DNA of 64,000 bases, taken from Mesorhizobium sp. M3A.F.Ca.ET.080.04.2.1 (GTDB taxonomy: Bacteria; Pseudomonadota; Alphaproteobacteria; Rhizobiales; Rhizobiaceae). Location of the stretch: NCBI RefSeq assembly GCF_003952525.1, contig NZ_CP034451.1, positions 5,308,501 through 5,372,500 of the forward strand, given 5' to 3'. The notes beneath the pieces are model-generated. The model had not been told where the DNA came from and ran no database searches. It saw nothing but the letters and a program-made list of their open reading frames with translations. Positions 4,601-24,612 of this stretch are shown one piece after another. The stretch's first letter is position 1. Each line of letters starts with the position of its first letter. The translations under genes and the position numbers were made by a program.

Positions 4601-4987
4601 TCAGCCAGGGGCGGCGCTTTTGCGGAACCGCGCCACCGCGTCGATCAACACTTTGTGGTCGACCGGTTTCGAGAGCCTCGGCGCGTCCCGGAACTGATCG
4701 GGAAAGACAGTCACGCTGTCATAGCCGGTGAGGAAGAGAAACGGGACGCCGCAGGCGGAGAGATGCTCGGCGAGCGGGAAGCTGCGTTCGCCACGCAGAT
4801 TGACGTCGAGGACCGCTCCATCGAGGGTGACGCCCTCGATCTTCTCGAACGCCTGTTTGTTAGTGGGCGCCGGACCGATCACGGCGCATCCTGCCGCGGC
4901 CAGCTGATCGGCGAGATCGCGCGCGAGCAGGAAAGTGTCCTCGACGACGAGGACCTTAAGGCCGGTCAGAAGCGCGTCCGTATTCAT
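4601..4987 (-). CDS. Single-domain response regulator (receiver only)
   Basis: A 128-residue receiver domain beginning MNTDALLTGLKVLVVEDTF. It has the acidic pair, phospho-acceptor Asp in AVLDVNLRGE, switch Thr in FLTGYD and Lys in RLSKPV. No output domain follows. The start at 4987 is chosen because its ATG overlaps the stop of the upstream kinase gene as ATGA, a sign of translational coupling; a longer in-frame start at 5044 lies inside the kinase gene. It is therefore the likely phospho-acceptor of the adjacent HWE kinase, acting as a diffusible receiver or phosphate sink. Its downstream target is not visible. Confidence 0.92.
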   Translation of the reverse strand: MNTDALLTGLKVLVVEDTFLLARDLADQLAAAGCAVIGPAPTNKQAFEKIEGVTLDGAVLDVNLRGERSFPLAEHLSACGVPFLFLTGYDSVTVFPDQFRDAPRLSKPVDHKVLIDAVARFRKSAAPG

Positions 4988-7900
4988 TCCTTGCCGGGCA
5001 GCGAAGGACCTGCATTCGTGGACAACGGTATTTCCAGATCGCATTCCAATCCGGAAGGTTCGAACCGCAGGTCCACCTTGCCACCCAATTCATACTCCAA
5101 ACTTTGCTGGATGAAGCTTGTTCCGAAATTCCGCCGCGGCGGCTCCTTGACACGCGGTCCGCCGATTTCCTTCCAGCGGATCGACAACTTCCCGGGTTTA
5201 TCGGCATTCCAGGTGACTTCGACGCGGCCGCTCTCGGTGGACAGCGCGCCGTATTTGGCGGCGTTGCTGGCCAGCTCGAAGAAGACCATGCCGAGCGTCG
5301 CAGCGGCGCTTGCGCTCAGATGCAACGGTTTGCCCTGGATTATTATGTTCTGCCGCTCCTTGCTGCCGTATGGGGTAAGTGTCCCCCTGAGCAACTGCTC
5401 GAGGTCGGCATCGCCCCAATTGTAAGACGACAGCACCTCGTGCGTTCGTGCCATGGCGTGCAACCGCTCCTGGAACGAGGTCGAGAAATCGCCGATCGAG
5501 GTCGAAGAGCGGATCATGCGCGACGTCAGCGCCGTGATCGTGGCCAGGATGTTCTTCACGCGATGCTGCAACTCGTGCAACAGCCTCTCCTGGCTGCGCT
5601 CCGCCTCCTTGTGGTTCGAGATGTCGACCAGCGCCGCGATCGCGCCGCGAACCCTGCCGGACTCATCGAACAGCGGGTTGGCCGACATCATCACGTCGAG
5701 GCTGCTGCCGTCCTGCCGCGCGATCCGCGCCTCATAGCTGGGGACAGCCTTGCCCGTCCGCATCGCCTTCTGCAAAGGCTGGTCGTCGGGTTTCAACGCG
5801 GAGCCGTTGATCATCAGCGGCAGTTCGGCCGGCACGGTCGTCAGTTTGCCGTCCGTGGCTCGCCGGCCGGCGAGTTCCACCGCATAGCGGTTGCCGCGGA
5901 TCGCCTCGCCATCGCCGTCCTCGGCGATGAAGATGCCCACCGGCACCAGGTCCAGCAGCGTTTCCAGGCTGTCGAGGCGGTTGCGCAGGTCATGAGTGAG
6001 CGCGCCGATCTTTTCCTCCGCCCGCGCGATCTGGGTGACGTCGACGAAGGTGACGACGACGCCGGCGATGACGTTGTCGACCGTTCGGTACGGCAGCACG
6101 CGCATGATGTAGCGCCTGCCGCTCTCTGCGCCTTCGATCTGCCGCTCGATCGTGCCGAGGCGGCGCAGCACCTGCTCCATGTCGGTCTGAAGTCCGTCGG
6201 CGGGAAAGCGGGGTCGGACATGCGCGAGCGGCCGGCCGACATCGCTTTCGACCAGCCGGAACAGGTCGCGCGCCGTCGGCGTGAAGCTTTTGATGCAGAG
6301 GTCGCGATCGAGGAACACGGTCGCGATCTGCGTGCTTTCGAGCAGGTTCGCCATGTCGTTGTTGGCGCGGCTGAGCTCGTCGACGCGGATGTTGAGCTCG
6401 GCATTGACGGTCTGGAGCTCCTCGTTGATCGACTGCAGCTCTTCCTTGGAGGTTTCCAGTTCCTCGTTGGACGATTGCAACTCCTCGTTGATGGAGGACA
6501 ACTCCTCGTTCGAGGACTTCAGCTCCTCGTTGGAGGATTCAAGCTCCTCCGTCGTGATCTGCAGCCGCTCCCGGGTTTCCCTCAGCTCCTTTTCGAGCTG
6601 GTTGACATTGGCGCTTTCGACATCGTCGGTGGTGTGGACGGGCTCGTCATCGGCCTCAGGCTTGATGCCGCCGACATCCCTGAAGACCAACATGTACAGA
6701 GGGTCCGCCGAGCCGTCGGAGGGCAGCGGCTGCACGGCCAGGCTGATCGTCTGGCGTCCGCCGTTGGTGCCGATGTTGATCTTGTTCTGGACCGCCACCT
6801 GCCCGGTGCTGACGGTCTTGTGAAGCGCTGCCCGCAAATCCATGCGCAGGCCGCGCCTCGCCATGGAAAAGACGTTGTGATCGGGTGCGCCGGCGGCAAG
6901 CTCGAGATATTTGCCCGTGCCGCCGGAGCTGTGCACCAACTCGCCGCCGGCATTGATCACCACGTAGGCCGGCGAGTAGCGCTCGACCAGCAGGCGTTCG
7001 GCAATTTCCTGCAAGGTTCCGGTCGTCGTCCGCTGGCGAGCATGCGGGGCGGCCTGCCTGGTCGCGGCCGCGAGCGGGAATTCCGGCAACCGCTGCGTGG
7101 CGACCCCGCCGCGCTTCTGGAAGATGCGGCTCGTCTTGTCGACGGTCGAGAACAGGCGCGCGTGACGGGTGACGTTCTCTGACGAGCCGAGGAAGAGATA
7201 GCCGTTGTTGCGCAACGCATAGTGGAAGATCGGGACGATCTTTTCCTGCAGTTCCGGGCCCATATAGATCAAGAGGTTCCGGCAGGCGATCAGGTCGAGC
7301 TTGGAAAAGGGCGGATCGCGCAACAGATTGTGCGCCGAGAACAGGCACACCTCCCGCAACTCGGCGGCGACGCGGTAGGTGCCGTCCTCGCGCGAGAAGA
7401 ACTCCTTGAGGCGCTTCGGCGTGACATCGGTCGCAATCGTTGCCGGGTAGCGGCCGGCTCGGGCCACTTCCAGCGCCCGCTCATCGATATCGGTGGCGAA
7501 TATCTGCAGGCTGGGCGAGGCGGCACCCCGGGGCGCGTTCTCCTTGAGCAGCATGGCAATCGAATAGGCTTCCTCGCCTGTCGCGCAGCCAGGCACCCAT
7601 ACCCGGATCGTCTCGTCCGGCTTGCGGTTCTCGAACAACTGGGGAATGACCATGCGTTCGAGCACGTCGAAGGCCTGCGGGTCGCGGAAGAAGCTGGTCA
7701 CGCCGATGAGCAGGTCCTGGAACAAAAGATCGACCTGCTGCGGCTCGTCGCGCAGCCGCTCGTAGAAGACGGTGGGATCATCGATCTGCAGCACCTGCAT
7801 GCGCCGCTGGATGCGCCTCAAGATGGTGTTGTCCTTGTAGCCGCTGAAGTCGTGGCCGGTGCGCACGCGAAGCAGTGCCGCGATGCGCGAAAGCTGTTCG

Positions 7901-8574
7901 GCCACGTCGCGCTTGCGGCGGTCGCGCTCGCTTTCGGTGCGCTTGGCGTGGCTGAAATAGCCGACCAGTTTCGCGGCCATTTCTTCCGCGGGAAGCACCA
8001 TGTCGATCATGCCGCTCTGCACGGCGCTGCGCATCATGCCGTCATATTCTGCGCTTTCCTGCGCAAGCGTCAGCCCGCCGCGCTCCTTGATCGCCCTGAG
8101 CCCGATGGTGCCGTCGCTGCCCGTCCCGGACAGGATGACCCCGGCGGCATTCTCCGACTGCTCCTGAGCCAGCGAGGTGAAAAAATCGTCGATCGGCGTC
8201 CGTTTGGCCCGCGTCGCAGCCATCTTGGCCACGTGAAAACGGCGGTTCGCGATCGTGACAGAGGCGCCCGGCGGAATAACGTAGATATTGTCCGGCTCGA
8301 TCGGGACACCCTCGGCCGCGGTCTGCGTTTCGATCGCGGTGCAGCGCTGGATGATGCTGGCAAGCACACTCTCGTGCTCGGCATCGAGATGCTGGATGAC
8401 CACATAGGCAAAGCCGCTATCGGCCGGCACTTCCGGAAAGAATTTCTGCAGCGCGCCGATGCCGCCTGCCGACGCGCCAATGCCGATGATGGGGAAGACC
8501 GCGGGCTCTAGCGCCGGCTCGCGGGAACTAGTCCGTGGCTTCGTTGCCGTTGCCTTCCTCGCCGACTGCGCCAT
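4984..8574 (-). CDS. CheB-CheR-PAS-HWE hybrid sensor histidine kinase
   Basis: A 1196-residue multidomain protein. In order: CheB methylesterase-like domain (about 25-215; GASAGG Ser, VIQHLD His, GSDGT Asp); CheR methyltransferase (about 228-490; GCATGEEAYS SAM motif); a glutamate-rich coiled coil of repeated SSNEEL-type heptads (about 655-740); two PAS-like regions; and an HWE kinase (about 1000-1196) with His in HELQHRVKN and the WxE motif as RWKE. No transmembrane segment is seen, so it is probably cytoplasmic. The start overlaps the preceding cheB by 47 nt, and the stop overlaps the downstream receiver. HWE kinases feed the PhyR-NepR-EcfG stress pathway in alphaproteobacteria; the ligand is unknown. 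Confidence 0.93.
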   Translation of the reverse strand: MAQSARKATATKPRTSSREPALEPAVFPIIGIGASAGGIGALQKFFPEVPADSGFAYVVIQHLDAEHESVLASIIQRCTAIETQTAAEGVPIEPDNIYVIPPGASVTIANRRFHVAKMAATRAKRTPIDDFFTSLAQEQSENAAGVILSGTGSDGTIGLRAIKERGGLTLAQESAEYDGMMRSAVQSGMIDMVLPAEEMAAKLVGYFSHAKRTESERDRRKRDVAEQLSRIAALLRVRTGHDFSGYKDNTILRRIQRRMQVLQIDDPTVFYERLRDEPQQVDLLFQDLLIGVTSFFRDPQAFDVLERMVIPQLFENRKPDETIRVWVPGCATGEEAYSIAMLLKENAPRGAASPSLQIFATDIDERALEVARAGRYPATIATDVTPKRLKEFFSREDGTYRVAAELREVCLFSAHNLLRDPPFSKLDLIACRNLLIYMGPELQEKIVPIFHYALRNNGYLFLGSSENVTRHARLFSTVDKTSRIFQKRGGVATQRLPEFPLAAATRQAAPHARQRTTTGTLQEIAERLLVERYSPAYVVINAGGELVHSSGGTGKYLELAAGAPDHNVFSMARRGLRMDLRAALHKTVSTGQVAVQNKINIGTNGGRQTISLAVQPLPSDGSADPLYMLVFRDVGGIKPEADDEPVHTTDDVESANVNQLEKELRETRERLQITTEELESSNEELKSSNEELSSINEELQSSNEELETSKEELQSINEELQTVNAELNIRVDELSRANNDMANLLESTQIATVFLDRDLCIKSFTPTARDLFRLVESDVGRPLAHVRPRFPADGLQTDMEQVLRRLGTIERQIEGAESGRRYIMRVLPYRTVDNVIAGVVVTFVDVTQIARAEEKIGALTHDLRNRLDSLETLLDLVPVGIFIAEDGDGEAIRGNRYAVELAGRRATDGKLTTVPAELPLMINGSALKPDDQPLQKAMRTGKAVPSYEARIARQDGSSLDVMMSANPLFDESGRVRGAIAALVDISNHKEAERSQERLLHELQHRVKNILATITALTSRMIRSSTSIGDFSTSFQERLHAMARTHEVLSSYNWGDADLEQLLRGTLTPYGSKERQNIIIQGKPLHLSASAAATLGMVFFELASNAAKYGALSTESGRVEVTWNADKPGKLSIRWKEIGGPRVKEPPRRNFGTSFIQQSLEYELGGKVDLRFEPSGLECDLEIPLSTNAGPSLPGKE

Positions 8575-9643
8575 CGTCTGGTACCTGTACCCGCCTGCTT
8601 TCGAGGATGCGCTCGATCACGGCTGCATCCGCCTCATATTCCCTGGCCCGCTGGCCGAACTCTCTCGCGAGCGCGGATCGATCCCGTGTCCGCTCCCGCT
8701 CGGCCATGCGCCGGGCAAACGCGGCCCGCTGCTGATGTGCCCGCAGCAGACTCCACAAGATCTCGTCCGCCTCGATCGCCTGCGCCTCCATCACCGCGTC
8801 GGCCGTGAAGGCATGCCCGGTATGGCACCGATAGCGGAGCATGTCACCGTCTTCGATCTCCCACAGCGGTCCGTGGCATTCGGGACATGTAAACACCGAC
8901 AGTTCGCCAAGTCGATCTTCATCTTTCATGGTCGAGTGCTCCTGTGCGGCGATTGCCGCTTCCAGCCTCACACCCGGCGGGGCGGCAAAGGTTTCGCCGG
9001 CTGGTTCGGACGCCAGTTGTCCCAGCAGACCGCCGAGCTCCGCCGCCGGCAGGCAGTGGTCGATCTCGGCATAGTGCAGCGCATTTTCCACCATGGCCGG
9101 CACGAGAGCGTCCTTCGGGTGCTGGACCACGGCGAGGCCGCCCACGGCCTTGATGGCCCTCAGACCAGCCGTGCCGTCGGAAAGCGCGCCCGAAAGCAGC
9201 ACACCGACGACGCTTGCGCCGTGGCTGAGCGCTGCCGAACGAAACAGCGGGTCTATCGCCGGCCTGGCGAGGTTCTCGCGCGGCCCGCGCCGCAGCATCA
9301 TGTGATCGCCATGGAGCAGCAGGTGAAAACCTGGTGGCGCCACGTAAATATTGCCGGTCTGGGCGGTCGCGCCATTCTTGGCCACCGAGGCCTTCAACGC
9401 TCCCGCCCGATCGAGGATTTCCGGCAGGTAGCTGACCTGGCCGATATGGACCACGACGAAAACCGCTGCCGGCAGATCCGGCGGCAAGTCGCTGACGATC
9501 CGCTTCAGCGGCTCGATCCCGCCGGCGGAGGCGCCGATGACGATGGTGTGATGCCCGCGAGAAGCGCGGCGAAGAGACCGCTCGGATCCAGCGGCCGGCT
9601 TGCGACGATGGTCGGAGGCAGGCTGCGGCCGCGGTCTGTTCAT
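8528..9643 (-). CDS. CheB-type methylesterase with C-terminal zinc ribbon
   Basis: A 371-residue protein with a CheB catalytic domain without a receiver domain: GASAGGIEPL (Ser), VVHIGQ (His), SGALSDGT (Asp). A short C-terminal CPEC...CHTGH zinc-ribbon-like module follows, then a charged helical tail. I chose the ATG at 9643, which has AGGA 5-6 nt upstream; GTG at 9661 and ATG at 9658 are alternatives. The gene overlaps the kinase gene by 47 nt, so both are likely in one operon with the receiver. A stress promoter candidate lies 50 nt upstream. Without a chemotaxis receptor nearby, it more likely tunes the kinase complex than flagellar chemotaxis. Confidence 0.9.
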   Translation of the reverse strand: MNRPRPQPASDHRRKPAAGSERSLRRASRGHHTIVIGASAGGIEPLKRIVSDLPPDLPAAVFVVVHIGQVSYLPEILDRAGALKASVAKNGATAQTGNIYVAPPGFHLLLHGDHMMLRRGPRENLARPAIDPLFRSAALSHGASVVGVLLSGALSDGTAGLRAIKAVGGLAVVQHPKDALVPAMVENALHYAEIDHCLPAAELGGLLGQLASEPAGETFAAPPGVRLEAAIAAQEHSTMKDEDRLGELSVFTCPECHGPLWEIEDGDMLRYRCHTGHAFTADAVMEAQAIEADEILWSLLRAHQQRAAFARRMAERERTRDRSALAREFGQRAREYEADAAVIERILESRRVQVPDDGAVGEEGNGNEATD

Positions 9644-9692
9644 GTTTTCCTGCAACATCACGCCCAGTTCAGATTGAGGGCAGCTTTCCGTT

Positions 9693-9717
9693 AACGACGG
9701 GGGTCAGGGGATGTTCC
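9693..9717 (-). promoter_or_regulatory. EcfG/RpoE2-type promoter candidate for the cheB-kinase-receiver operon
   Basis: Minus-strand GGAAC (9717-9713), 17-nt spacer, GTT (9695-9693). The start codon lies 50 nt downstream (32 nt for the alternative GTG). The divergent promoter candidate at 9742 is only 24 nt away. Confidence 0.65.
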
Positions 9718-9906: not shown

Positions 9907-10338
9907 ATGAAGCACCAGACGCTCGACCAATTGCAAGCTGTCGCGGAGGTCAATCCGCTTGCGCCGGCGCTGCTCGAAACAAGAAACCAGCGGTTGGAGC
10001 GGTGGGCGCAGCTGCTCGACCAGAACCCGCTGCGGTGCCTTTCGGCGCTCACCGGTACCGAGCATCTCTATCCCTCAGTCCGACAGGAAGCGCGGGCACC
10101 GGGATCGCCGATCACCGTGGCGTTCGACGATCCGCTGCTGCGCGCCTCCGGTCTGGCTTCGGACACGTATGGCGAGGCGAGACGCTTCTTCGAGCTCTCC
10201 GATTGGGAATTGCATGAAGTCGTCTGCAGCTGCCACGCCGGCTCCACCATGCGCGCGAGCTGGGCTGCGGCGCGGGTTCGCAGGATCATGGGGGGCAATC
10301 GGCTCTTAGCCTGGCTGAGGAGTCGGTTCGTGCATTGA
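9907..10338 (+). CDS. Hypothetical protein, 143 aa, stress-island member
   Basis: Begins MKHQTLDQLQAVAEVNPLAP after a good AGGAG ribosome-binding site, so I regard it as a real gene. The protein is soluble, without a signal peptide or membrane segment, rich in Arg, Leu and Ala, and its C-terminal region has two cysteines (VVCSCHAG). I do not recognise the family. It converges with the receiver/sigma-like gene on the other strand, 44 nt away, and is preceded at distance by a general-stress promoter candidate, which suggests stress induction only. Confidence 0.75.
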   Translation: MKHQTLDQLQAVAEVNPLAPALLETRNQRLERWAQLLDQNPLRCLSALTGTEHLYPSVRQEARAPGSPITVAFDDPLLRASGLASDTYGEARRFFELSDWELHEVVCSCHAGSTMRASWAAARVRRIMGGNRLLAWLRSRFVH

Positions 10339-10382: not shown

Positions 10383-10970
10383 TCAGTGCAGCAGGCTTGC
10401 TCCGCGCGCTCGCGCCAACCTGCGCATGATTGCGTTCAACCAGTCGGCGATGGTCGATCCCTCCGGCCGGCTGTCGATTTCGTCGAGGGCTTGTTGAAGC
10501 GTGTGCTCGACAAGCCGATCGGAGGCATTGACGTCGCCGAGCAAAAGACGCGCCGTAAGCCGTAATTTGGGCAGCAGCGAGAACACGTCGTCGTCTGGCC
10601 GGTCGGTCGCAGGCCGGGACTGGTCTGGGGGGAAAAGGGCATCCGCCACAGTGACGCCGCTGGAGGATTTGCTGAGGCTGCTTGCGAATCTCAGGTGTTC
10701 CGGCACAGCGATATCCTCGTAGCCGCTGAAGAAAACGAAAGGCACGTTTCGCCGCATCAATTCATCGGCAATCGGAAACACGCGCCGGCCCTGGAGATCG
10801 ATGTCGAGTATGGCGGCTTCCGCCGCCTCGGTGTGTCGGGCGGCTTGCTCCACGGTCGCGACGGGGCCGAGTATGACGGCGCCCATGTCGGTGAAAAACT
10901 GGGCCAGATCGCTGGCGAGGAGCCACTCGTCCTCCACGATCAGTATGTGAAGCCCTCGCAGATCGCGCAC
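10383..10970 (-). CDS. Response regulator: N-terminal receiver plus C-terminal sigma-region-2-like domain
   Basis: A 195-residue protein. Residues 1-105 are a receiver: acidic residues in VEDEW, phospho-acceptor Asp56 in AILDIDLQG, switch Ser82 in FFSGYE and Lys101 in LSK. Residues about 127-190 (SLLPKLRLTARLLLGD then ADWLNAIMRRLARARG) resemble ECF sigma region 2; no region 4 follows. PhyR, the anti-anti-sigma regulator of this pathway, has the reverse order: sigma-like domain first, receiver last. GTG start with AAGGAAG upstream, 3 nt after the stop of a NepR-like gene. Likely role (inference): a phosphorylation-controlled sigma mimic or decoy for the NepR-like partner. The receiver call is firm; the sigma-like call is moderate. 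Confidence 0.85.
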   Translation of the reverse strand: MRDLRGLHILIVEDEWLLASDLAQFFTDMGAVILGPVATVEQAARHTEAAEAAILDIDLQGRRVFPIADELMRRNVPFVFFSGYEDIAVPEHLRFASSLSKSSSGVTVADALFPPDQSRPATDRPDDDVFSLLPKLRLTARLLLGDVNASDRLVEHTLQQALDEIDSRPEGSTIADWLNAIMRRLARARGASLLH

Positions 10971-10973
10971 GTT

Positions 10974-11156
10974 TCATGCTTCCTTGTTAGGGCCCGCCTT
11001 GCCGTCAGCACCGGCGTTCCCAGGCCGCTGGCGCAGGGCCTTGGCCAGGCGCCTGGCCAAGTCGAGCATGCGAGGCGGCACATCCTCGCTGAAAATCGGC
11101 TGCCGGGACCGTCGATCTTGCGGCACCGGTTTCGTTTCGGGCGGACGCTTGGACAT
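10974..11156 (-). CDS. NepR-like small anti-sigma factor candidate
   Basis: A 60-residue charged protein, MSKRPPETKPVPQDRRSRQ at the N-terminus, with a core SEDVPPRMLDLARRLAKALR. That core resembles the NepR motif (P-x-PDR-hydrophobic-x-DLL-x-L) with a basic variation. NepR binds and silences EcfG until phosphorylated PhyR removes it. I chose the ATG at 11156; an upstream in-frame start at 11285 would add 43 low-quality residues and cross the promoter. The gene has its own EcfG-type promoter candidate 28 nt upstream and is followed after 3 nt by a receiver/sigma-like gene, mirroring a regulator-antiregulator pair. No ecfG gene is in the window. The assignment rests on a short motif plus context. 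Confidence 0.65.
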   Translation of the reverse strand: MSKRPPETKPVPQDRRSRQPIFSEDVPPRMLDLARRLAKALRQRPGNAGADGKAGPNKEA

Positions 11157-11183
11157 AGCAATCACCAGGGAAGTCGTTCCTAG

Positions 11184-11208
11184 AACGCGGTGCGGATGGA
11201 GTCGTTCC
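11184..11208 (-). promoter_or_regulatory. EcfG/RpoE2-type promoter candidate for the nepR-like operon
   Basis: Minus-strand GGAAC (11208-11204), 17-nt spacer, GTT (11186-11184), 28 nt before the nepR-like ATG. This would place the pair under the sigma factor it may control. Confidence 0.65.
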
Positions 11209-23236: not shown

Positions 23237-24612
23237 GGCGGCCAGATCCTGCTCTCATCCGTCGGCCGGCCTATCTCTCGCTGGCCGATCAAATTGCGCG
23301 CGCGATCCATGACGGGCGGCTTGCCAATGGCGCGCGGCTGCCGACGCATCGGCGCCTTGCCGATGATCTGCAGCTTTCGGTGCAGACGGTCAGCCGCGCC
23401 TATGAGGAACTGATCCGGCGTGGGCTGATTTCCGGCGAGGTCGGACGCGGCAGCTTCGTCCAGACGCAGCGCCGCGAGCCGGAGCCGCCCTACATTCCGG
23501 AGCGGTTGGGCGAGGTCATCGACCTTTCCATCCTGAAGCCGGTCTGCGAGCCGATGCACTTGGAGAAGCTGAAGCAGGCGCTGGGTTGGCTGGCCGAGAA
23601 CCTGCCGTCGAGTTCGGCGCTGTCGTTCCGGCCGAACATGGTGTTTCCGCGTCATCGCGCCGTCGCGGTGGAATGGCTGAAGCTCTGCGGCCTTGAAGCC
23701 TCGCCGCAGAACATCAGCCTCACCAATGGCGCGACGGCCGGCATGACGGTGGCGCTGATGAGCGTGGCCCCCCCGGGCTCGACGGTTGCCACCGAGGCGA
23801 TCGGCCACCACACGCTGGTGCCGCTTTCCCGCTATCTCGGCTTCAACCTGGAAGGCCTGCCGATCGACGGCAACGGCTTGATCCCCGAGGCGCTCGACGA
23901 GGCGTGCCGGCTCTCCGACATCCGCGCCGTCTTTATCCAGCCGTCGGTGATCAACCCGACGGCGACCTTGATGGACGCCACAAGGCGCGAGCAGATCGCG
24001 GCGGTCGCCCGCAAGCACGACATCGCCATCATCGAGAACGATGTGCTTGGGCCTCTGGTCGAAGGGCGGCCGCCGGCCGTCGCTGCTTTCGCGGCGGAAC
24101 GGACGCTCTACGTCACCTCCTTCACCAAGATCACGGTGCCCGGCCTGCGCATCGGCTATCTCGCCGTGCCGGACCGCTATGTCGCGGCGGTTGCCAACCG
24201 GCATCTGGTGTCGAACTGGATGGCGACGCCGATGGTGGCGGAGATCGCGACGCGGTGGGTCAATGACGGCACGGCGATGGAATTGGTGACCTGGCAGCGG
24301 GGGGCACTCAGACGGCGCCAGGAGATAGTTGCGGAAATGTTGGCGGGCGTCGACTATCGGTGCCATCGCGACGGGTTGCATCTCTGGCTCGAACTGCCGG
24401 GAGACCGCGCCGAGGAGAGTTTTGTCGCACAGGCGCGGCTGCGCGGCGTGGCTATTGCGCCGGGCGCTTCGTTCCGCATCGCCGACACGCCCTGGCAGCC
24501 CGCCGTGCGAATCTCGCTGGGTTCCACCACCGAGGGGGAACTGCGCGCGGGCTTGAGCGTTGTCGCCAAGCTTCTGCTTGGCGACCCGGAGCATCTCCTG
24601 CTCGCCATTTGA
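23227..24612 (+). CDS. enuR: MocR-type PLP-dependent regulator of ectoine genes (EnuR-like)
   Basis: 461 residues. An N-terminal GntR-type winged helix (LPTHRRLADDLQLSVQTVSR) is joined to a fold-type I aminotransferase domain with PLP Lys in TSFTKITVPGLRIGY and IIENDVLGPL near the cofactor. EnuR represses ectoine uptake and use until its PLP reacts with alpha-acetyl-diaminobutyrate or diaminobutyrate. It lies directly before ehuABCD-eutABCDE and is divergent from asnC, which supports the call. There is no visible ribosome-binding site before the ATG, so translation may be leaderless or inefficient. GC-rich and typical in codon use. Confidence 0.9.
   Translation: MTLWRPDPALIRRPAYLSLADQIARAIHDGRLANGARLPTHRRLADDLQLSVQTVSRAYEELIRRGLISGEVGRGSFVQTQRREPEPPYIPERLGEVIDLSILKPVCEPMHLEKLKQALGWLAENLPSSSALSFRPNMVFPRHRAVAVEWLKLCGLEASPQNISLTNGATAGMTVALMSVAPPGSTVATEAIGHHTLVPLSRYLGFNLEGLPIDGNGLIPEALDEACRLSDIRAVFIQPSVINPTATLMDATRREQIAAVARKHDIAIIENDVLGPLVEGRPPAVAAFAAERTLYVTSFTKITVPGLRIGYLAVPDRYVAAVANRHLVSNWMATPMVAEIATRWVNDGTAMELVTWQRGALRRRQEIVAEMLAGVDYRCHRDGLHLWLELPGDRAEESFVAQARLRGVAIAPGASFRIADTPWQPAVRISLGSTTEGELRAGLSVVAKLLLGDPEHLLLAI

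Follow-up and report, generated by a model that had tools for sequence, protein, structure and literature searches.

We analyzed a 64,000-nt stretch of Mesorhizobium sp. M3A.F.Ca.ET.080.04.2.1 (NZ_CP034451.1, positions 5,308,501 to 5,372,500; hereafter, the window), in which a first-pass annotation had described a NepR-like gene followed by a gene for a possible PhyR with reversed domain order. This pair was confirmed on the minus strand of the window (Table 1). As annotated, the stop codon of the 60-aa small open reading frame (ORF) is separated by 3 nt from the GTG start codon of the second gene, which encodes a response regulator with a receiver domain and a sigma region 2-like (sigma2) domain (REC-s2).

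Domain composition and promoter of REC-s2

The C-terminal part of REC-s2 proved to be a sigma region 2 domain, as had been proposed. In hidden Markov model searches, Pfam PhyR_sigma2 matched residues 132-182 (25.4 bits, E 1.5e-5; cut-off 27) and gave 27.0 bits with the C-terminal piece alone, and the NCBIfam extracytoplasmic function (ECF) sigma factor model PRK12540 also matched REC-s2 (E 3e-8). Region 4 is absent, as annotated: PhyR contains both sigma2 and sigma4, whereas neither Sigma70_r4 nor PF22233, which matches the canonical PhyR of the same genome, matched REC-s2 at E ≤ 10 in Pfam. Within the sigma2 domain, the stretches LPKLRLxARLLL and ADRLVExTLExA are conserved and region 2.3/2.4 has diverged. 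In L079 and L080 (4992-5582, oriented), the third sigma2 helix of REC-s2 is nearly unrecognizable and the first two match EcfG well. Because receiver domains dominated the Foldseek matches of the full-length model (best 50 of 1542 rows), the sigma2 part was searched alone. Its model (pLDDT, the predicted local distance difference test, of 84.5) had the sigma chains of 5uxx, an EcfG-type RpoE with NepR, as top two matches, and 42 of the first 45 rows came from entries whose titles name a sigma factor or PhyR; every match was weak (E 0.035 or worse). The full-length model has low confidence over residues 103-126. Many of its VIA alignments reach residues 143-152, and their ends look as if the first sigma2 helix had replaced receiver helix 5; neither observation was used as evidence.

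The Pfam Response_reg match of the receiver domain (residues 9-89; 20.4 bits, E 6e-4) falls short of the curated cut-off (30.2). The annotated residues Asp56, Ser82, and Lys101 are all in place, together with E13 and D14. In an alignment of 60 sequences including that of the window, E13, D14, and K101 are invariant and D56 is at least 90% conserved. REC-s2 thus carries the acidic pair, Asp, Ser/Thr, and Lys of the PhyR receiver, and is predicted to be phosphorylatable.

The pair also has its own EcfG-type promoter motif (GGAAC-N16-CGTT), in line with the first-pass annotation. GGAAC-N16/17-CGTT occurs within 450 nt 5' of REC-s2 in the window, in 17 of 23 genome_contigs loci (L016-L038), and in 9 of 18 (L071-L088, counting L088), compared with 0.28% of shuffled upstream stretches; within this distance it was not found in L078 or in any of L081-L088. 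This is the motif of the EcfG regulon, and EcfG dependence of the pair is predicted. Since a second such motif precedes the CheB-like and kinase genes, the kinase may also be stress-induced. Two more EcfG-type motifs lie at 24537 (+) and 40546 (+) of the window.

Table 1. Features of the REC-s2 locus (positions within the 64,000-nt window).
Feature	Position	Strand	Remarks
60-aa NepR-like small protein ("half-NepR")	10974..11156	-	ATG start
NepR second-block motif EDVPPRMLDLARRLAKALRQR, small-protein residues 24-44	11025..11087	-	Profile comparison
Receiver-sigma2 response regulator (REC-s2), 195 aa	10383..10970	-	GTG start
Receiver domain, REC-s2 residues 8-112 (E13, D14, D56, S82, K101)	10635..10949	-	Nearest solved relative by profile: SdrG
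Sigma region 2-like domain, REC-s2 residues 127-193, three helices	10392..10592	-	Pfam, NCBIfam, structure model
EcfG-type promoter motif GGAAC-N16-CGTT, 5' of the pair	11184..11208	-	Motif search
CheB-CheR-PAS-HWE histidine kinase, candidate phosphodonor	4984..8574	-	Pfam
CheB-methylesterase-like protein, upstream of kinase gene	8528..9661	-	Pfam
Second EcfG-type motif, 5' of CheB-like/kinase genes	9693..9717	-	Motif search
Single-domain receiver (SdrG-like, PRK13435 type) adjoining kinase	4601..5044	-	Pfam, NCBIfam, linkage

The small protein and the kinship of the pair

The small ORF is more than a chance reading frame: it recurs beside REC-s2 in other genera, a profile built from other sequences detects it, and its nonsynonymous divergence (dN) is lower than its synonymous divergence (dS). 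A homologue lies directly upstream of REC-s2 in 15 of the 23 loci L016-L038 and elsewhere in the stretch in three more (L023, L027, and L036). An 11-sequence profile detected new small ORFs near REC-s2 in other genera (e.g., in L081, E 2.4e-8; L076, 5e-6; and L080, 9e-6). A 17-sequence profile built without L016-L038 and the window, but with further Mesorhizobium ORFs, among them the second copy from the genome of the window, matched 21 of 2526 ORFs at E ≤ 0.01, the window ORF among them (6.3e-8). Each of the 24 pairs of relatives examined, which are not independent, had a dN below its dS.

The likeness to NepR claimed for this protein holds for the second conserved block of NepR (VPDRFxxLLxxLxxA) and is visible only by profile comparison. 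No NepR model of Pfam or NCBIfam was reached by the small ORF, and PF18557 gave no match with the window ORF. In hhalign, 18 small ORFs aligned with 22 canonical NepRs (26 rows extracted, four wrong or truncated ones removed) over 18 columns (P 1.5e-6, probability 90), the aligned block of the small ORFs being EPVPDRFLxLLeqLdxA. Against the NepR profile the window ORF scored 11.0 bits, and the best and second best of 1800 shuffles scored 10.1 and 5.5 bits. Among the 18 small ORFs, 14 scored above 5.5 bits, four above 10.1, and four below 5.5. The first NepR helix, with the LRxxY residues taken as reference from the accessible part of PMC6599016, is absent from the REC-s2-adjacent small ORFs in the alignments.

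Like the PhyR (RsiB)-NepR (RsiA)-EcfG (RpoE2/SigT) system of Alphaproteobacteria, the set described here combines a receiver and a sigma mimic in one protein with a NepR-like small protein, an EcfG-type sigma factor, an HWE kinase, and GGAAC-N16/17-CGTT promoters. However, the small protein is reduced to the second block of NepR, and REC-s2 differs from PhyR in having the receiver first and the mimic, with sigma2 only, last (residues 9-89 and 132-182 in the Pfam matches), whereas the canonical PhyR of the same genome has an N-terminal sigma-like domain and a C-terminal receiver. The receiver itself is of the SdrG type: in a profile search of the PDB it scored 74.5 bits against SdrG (5ieb) and 25.7-35.7 bits against PhyR chains, being closest to the SdrG/MrrA/PRK13435 family, and PRK13435 models of NCBIfam also matched it. 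Members of this family are single-domain proteins, to which REC-s2 adds a sigma2 domain. In the receiver tree, PhyR and the single-domain row SD_L012 split from REC-s2 and the other single-domain receivers (support 98/89, long branches), and a clade of REC-s2 and PhyR, tested after removal of SD_L009, was not rejected (approximately unbiased test, p-AU 0.18). In the sigma2 tree (62 columns), REC-s2 and PhyR were separated from the sigma factors (96/85), and in 20 of 21 rows the sigma2 domain of REC-s2 scored higher with the EcfG profile than with that of PhyR; Ec_L092 is absent from the sigma2 rows. The reversed order of the first-pass annotation stands, but descent from PhyR by permutation is only one possibility, given that the receiver is nearer to SdrG and that the sigma2 tree and the profile scores disagree. 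Because of the resemblance to SdrG, an independent fusion is as possible as a permutation, and the REC-s2 module is possibly an independent invention. On account of the domain order and the missing sigma4 and first NepR helix, neither protein is PhyR or NepR; as far as sequence can tell, the two form a distinct variant that would work like PhyR-NepR-EcfG. No description of a receiver-sigma2 protein or a reversed PhyR was found in the open-licence literature searched.

Gene neighborhood and linkage to a second EcfG-like sigma factor

Members of Shinella, Martelella, Sinorhizobium, Ensifer, and further Alphaproteobacteria have the gene set as well. Neighbors were counted in 18 loci with full-length REC-s2, namely 17 of 18 fetched and the window, which takes the place of L088, left out because its receiver ORF ends at 132 aa. 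In the wider tallies of homologues, many hits covered just the receiver; these were not taken as REC-s2. A small ORF lies within 5 kb of REC-s2 in 14 of these loci, three of which are training rows, and an HWE-type kinase is linked to REC-s2 in 14 including the window. By BLAST, it is a relative of the CheB-CheR-PAS-HWE kinase of the window in 8 loci (window included) and another HWE-type kinase in 6, and Pfam HWE_HK was confirmed in the kinases of the window, L079, L082, and L087. An EcfG-like sigma gene is near REC-s2 in four loci (L081, L085, L086, and L087). The gene order in L087 (=L046) is sigma, small ORF, REC-s2, kinase, and single-domain receiver. Shinella zoogloeoides (L140) has sigma, small ORF, and REC-s2 side by side, the small ORF being convergent and overlapping, and in Martelella (L138), S. 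chiapasense (L139), and E. canadensis (L141, sigma cut by the stretch end) the three lie within about 7 kb. A 143-aa ORF convergent with the pair in the window (9907-10338, plus strand) is kept beside REC-s2 in L072-L074 (68-71% identity); its one NCBIfam match, to an adenosine deaminase model, is weak.

The sigma factor linked to REC-s2 is not the canonical one but a second, RpoE5-type one. In the genome of the window, where REC-s2 and this sigma gene are far apart, a search of 19 genomes with the small-ORF profile found a second copy of the small ORF (E 1e-6) adjoining a second EcfG-like sigma factor (841682-842212), 45% identical to EcfG. Convergent or neighboring pairs of sigma and small ORF are also present in G375, G073, G355, G284, G278, and G105, the sigma of G073 being truncated where its contig ends, and the second sigma has a NepR-like neighbor in all five genus members inspected. 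The three Mesorhizobium genomes of this set without REC-s2 gave no small-ORF match below E 0.1, although G253 among them matches the second sigma at 70% identity. Among 146 genomes of the genus, REC-s2 (E ≤ 1e-30, a few partial) is present in 54 and the second sigma (E ≤ 1e-60) in 67, with both in 52 and neither in 77. Without correction for descent, the Fisher P of this co-occurrence is 2.6e-23. The two REC-s2 genomes without the second sigma are G073, where it is cut, and G938. For 47 of 55 REC-s2 genes, the second sigma is no more than 35 kb away on the same contig; for six, this sigma is on another contig or absent.

The small ORFs adjacent to the second sigma also have a short first helix. 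Twelve of them aligned with NepR over 30 columns (P 5.8e-8), which ties the small-ORF family to NepR, and 11 outscored the best of 1800 shuffles. Of six such relatives compared with PF18557 (cut-off 25.7), three scored 14.8-18.9 bits and three gave no match. The accessible part of PMC6180224 reports that in S. meliloti an unannotated RsiA-like ORF was noticed opposite SMb21687, beside RpoE5, and that little is known on how RpoE5 activity is regulated. That account shares with ours a second EcfG-type sigma and an opposite-strand NepR-like ORF, and REC-s2 is not mentioned in this part of it. A sigma gene with an opposite-strand NepR-like ORF is present in L142 (S. meliloti pSymB, strain R14), L145, and L148. 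The L142 ORF (4507-4665, minus strand), convergent with an RpoE5-type sigma, is annotated as "hypothetical" (WKL28874.1); judged by replicon and arrangement, the sigma of this locus is very probably RpoE5, and the small ORF the unannotated RsiA-like one that faces SMb21687. In eight second-sigma plasmid loci other than that of R. etli, hand-picked among 60 listed of 508 records, a NepR-like ORF was present at three and absent at five (A. fabrum, R. tropici, Chelatococcus, Roseinatronobacter, and Tistrella). Neither a NepR-like ORF nor REC-s2 was found in 30 kb of p42f with the plasmid-borne EcfG-like sigma of R. etli CFN42, possibly the EcfG2 of PMC3892343. About 17 kb from that sigma, a stretch without a NepR-like ORF (L137, 22127-29888) encodes a receiver-helix-turn-helix protein, two single-domain receivers, CheB, a kinase like that of the window, and another receiver.

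A proposed second partner switch and its alternatives

On balance, we favor a second partner switch resembling PhyR-NepR-EcfG but rebuilt, with the second EcfG-like (RpoE5/EcfG2-type) sigma factor as output. In this switch, an HWE kinase, probably the neighboring CheB-CheR-PAS-HWE kinase, would phosphorylate D56 of REC-s2, perhaps via the single-domain receiver. Phosphorylation would free the sigma2 domain, a putative mimic of region 2 of the second sigma, to capture a short NepR-like anti-sigma factor and so release the second sigma. REC-s2 would then be the anti-anti-sigma factor, the short NepR-like protein the anti-sigma factor, and the RpoE5-type sigma the output. What the sequences show directly is gene content, domain identities, conserved active-site residues, the promoter motif, and the linkage and co-occurrence with the second sigma and its NepR-like neighbor; that REC-s2 is phosphorylated, exposes its sigma2 domain, binds its partner, and lets the sigma go in this direction is our inference. 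With EcfG-type promoters in front of both the pair and the kinase, this second branch would be armed by the main stress response. The first-pass annotation had likewise envisaged a second partner switch with a reversed-domain protein, but one that tunes EcfG; gene linkage and co-occurrence point instead to the RpoE5-type sigma as the likelier client of REC-s2. The small protein adjacent to REC-s2 may be the anti-sigma factor itself or a NepR2-like brake.

EcfG would be tuned directly if REC-s2 competed with PhyR for canonical NepR, the small protein acting as a side regulator. This is consistent with the EcfG-type promoters preceding the pair, with the presence of PhyR, NepR, and EcfG in the same genome, and with the preference of the sigma2 domain for the EcfG profile, but REC-s2 is linked to, and co-occurs with, the second sigma and the NepR-like neighbor of that sigma. 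Moreover, according to the accessible part of PMC4598750, NepR is thought to wrap both sigma2 and sigma4, as PhyR-NepR superimposes on CnrH-CnrY, which makes canonical NepR a less likely target of a protein devoid of sigma4, and we consider direct tuning of EcfG unlikely. The small protein could also resemble NepR2 and provide negative feedback by blocking REC-s2 or PhyR instead of a sigma factor, which would make it an anti-anti-anti-sigma factor. Precedents are the extra NepR-like proteins in the stress network of Sphingomonas melonis (NepR2) and M. extorquens (NepR homologues): in the accessible parts of PMC6599016 and PMC4814048, NepR2 and two M. extorquens homologues co-precipitate PhyR, the latter two bound no EcfG in two-hybrid tests, and one of them is itself a target of the stress response. 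NepR2, however, keeps the first-helix residues L31 and F35, and these parts describe no receiver-sigma2 partner for it or for the homologues. Several genomes have two NepR-like ORFs, one beside the sigma and one beside REC-s2, the latter without the first helix, as would suit an antagonist. In Shinella L140 and in L046/L087, in contrast, a single small ORF stands between sigma and REC-s2; no second one was found in these stretches, which leaves it as the only anti-sigma candidate there. Such feedback appears to us similarly improbable. It is more remote still that the sigma2 domain has kept its binding to RNA polymerase, with phosphorylated REC-s2 acting as a competitor of sigma factors or taking part in promoter recognition. 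The region 2.2 helix does retain ADRLVExTLExA, near the ECF consensus, but at the Q position of the ECF LVQ motif 18 of 21 rows have E and 3 have A, region 2.3/2.4 (WLFTILRNEFYSQ in EcfG) is not kept, and sigma4 is missing.

Of the alphaproteobacterial genomes completed by 2013, about half had extra EcfG-type sigma factors, the occurrence of which "has not satisfactorily been explained" (accessible part of PMC3892343). Tentatively, the rebuilt partner switch could be a minimal one that arose independently of PhyR, in which an SdrG-type receiver fused to an EcfG-like region 2 mimics the second sigma and has as its counterpart a NepR reduced to the one helix that is enough for binding. It would supply a missing activation route for the extra, non-canonical EcfG copies of many Rhizobiales. 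The linked kinase, receiver-mimic, and short NepR-like protein make the control of these extra sigma factors directly testable. If this is true, sigma factor mimicry would need neither the architecture of PhyR nor both sigma domains.
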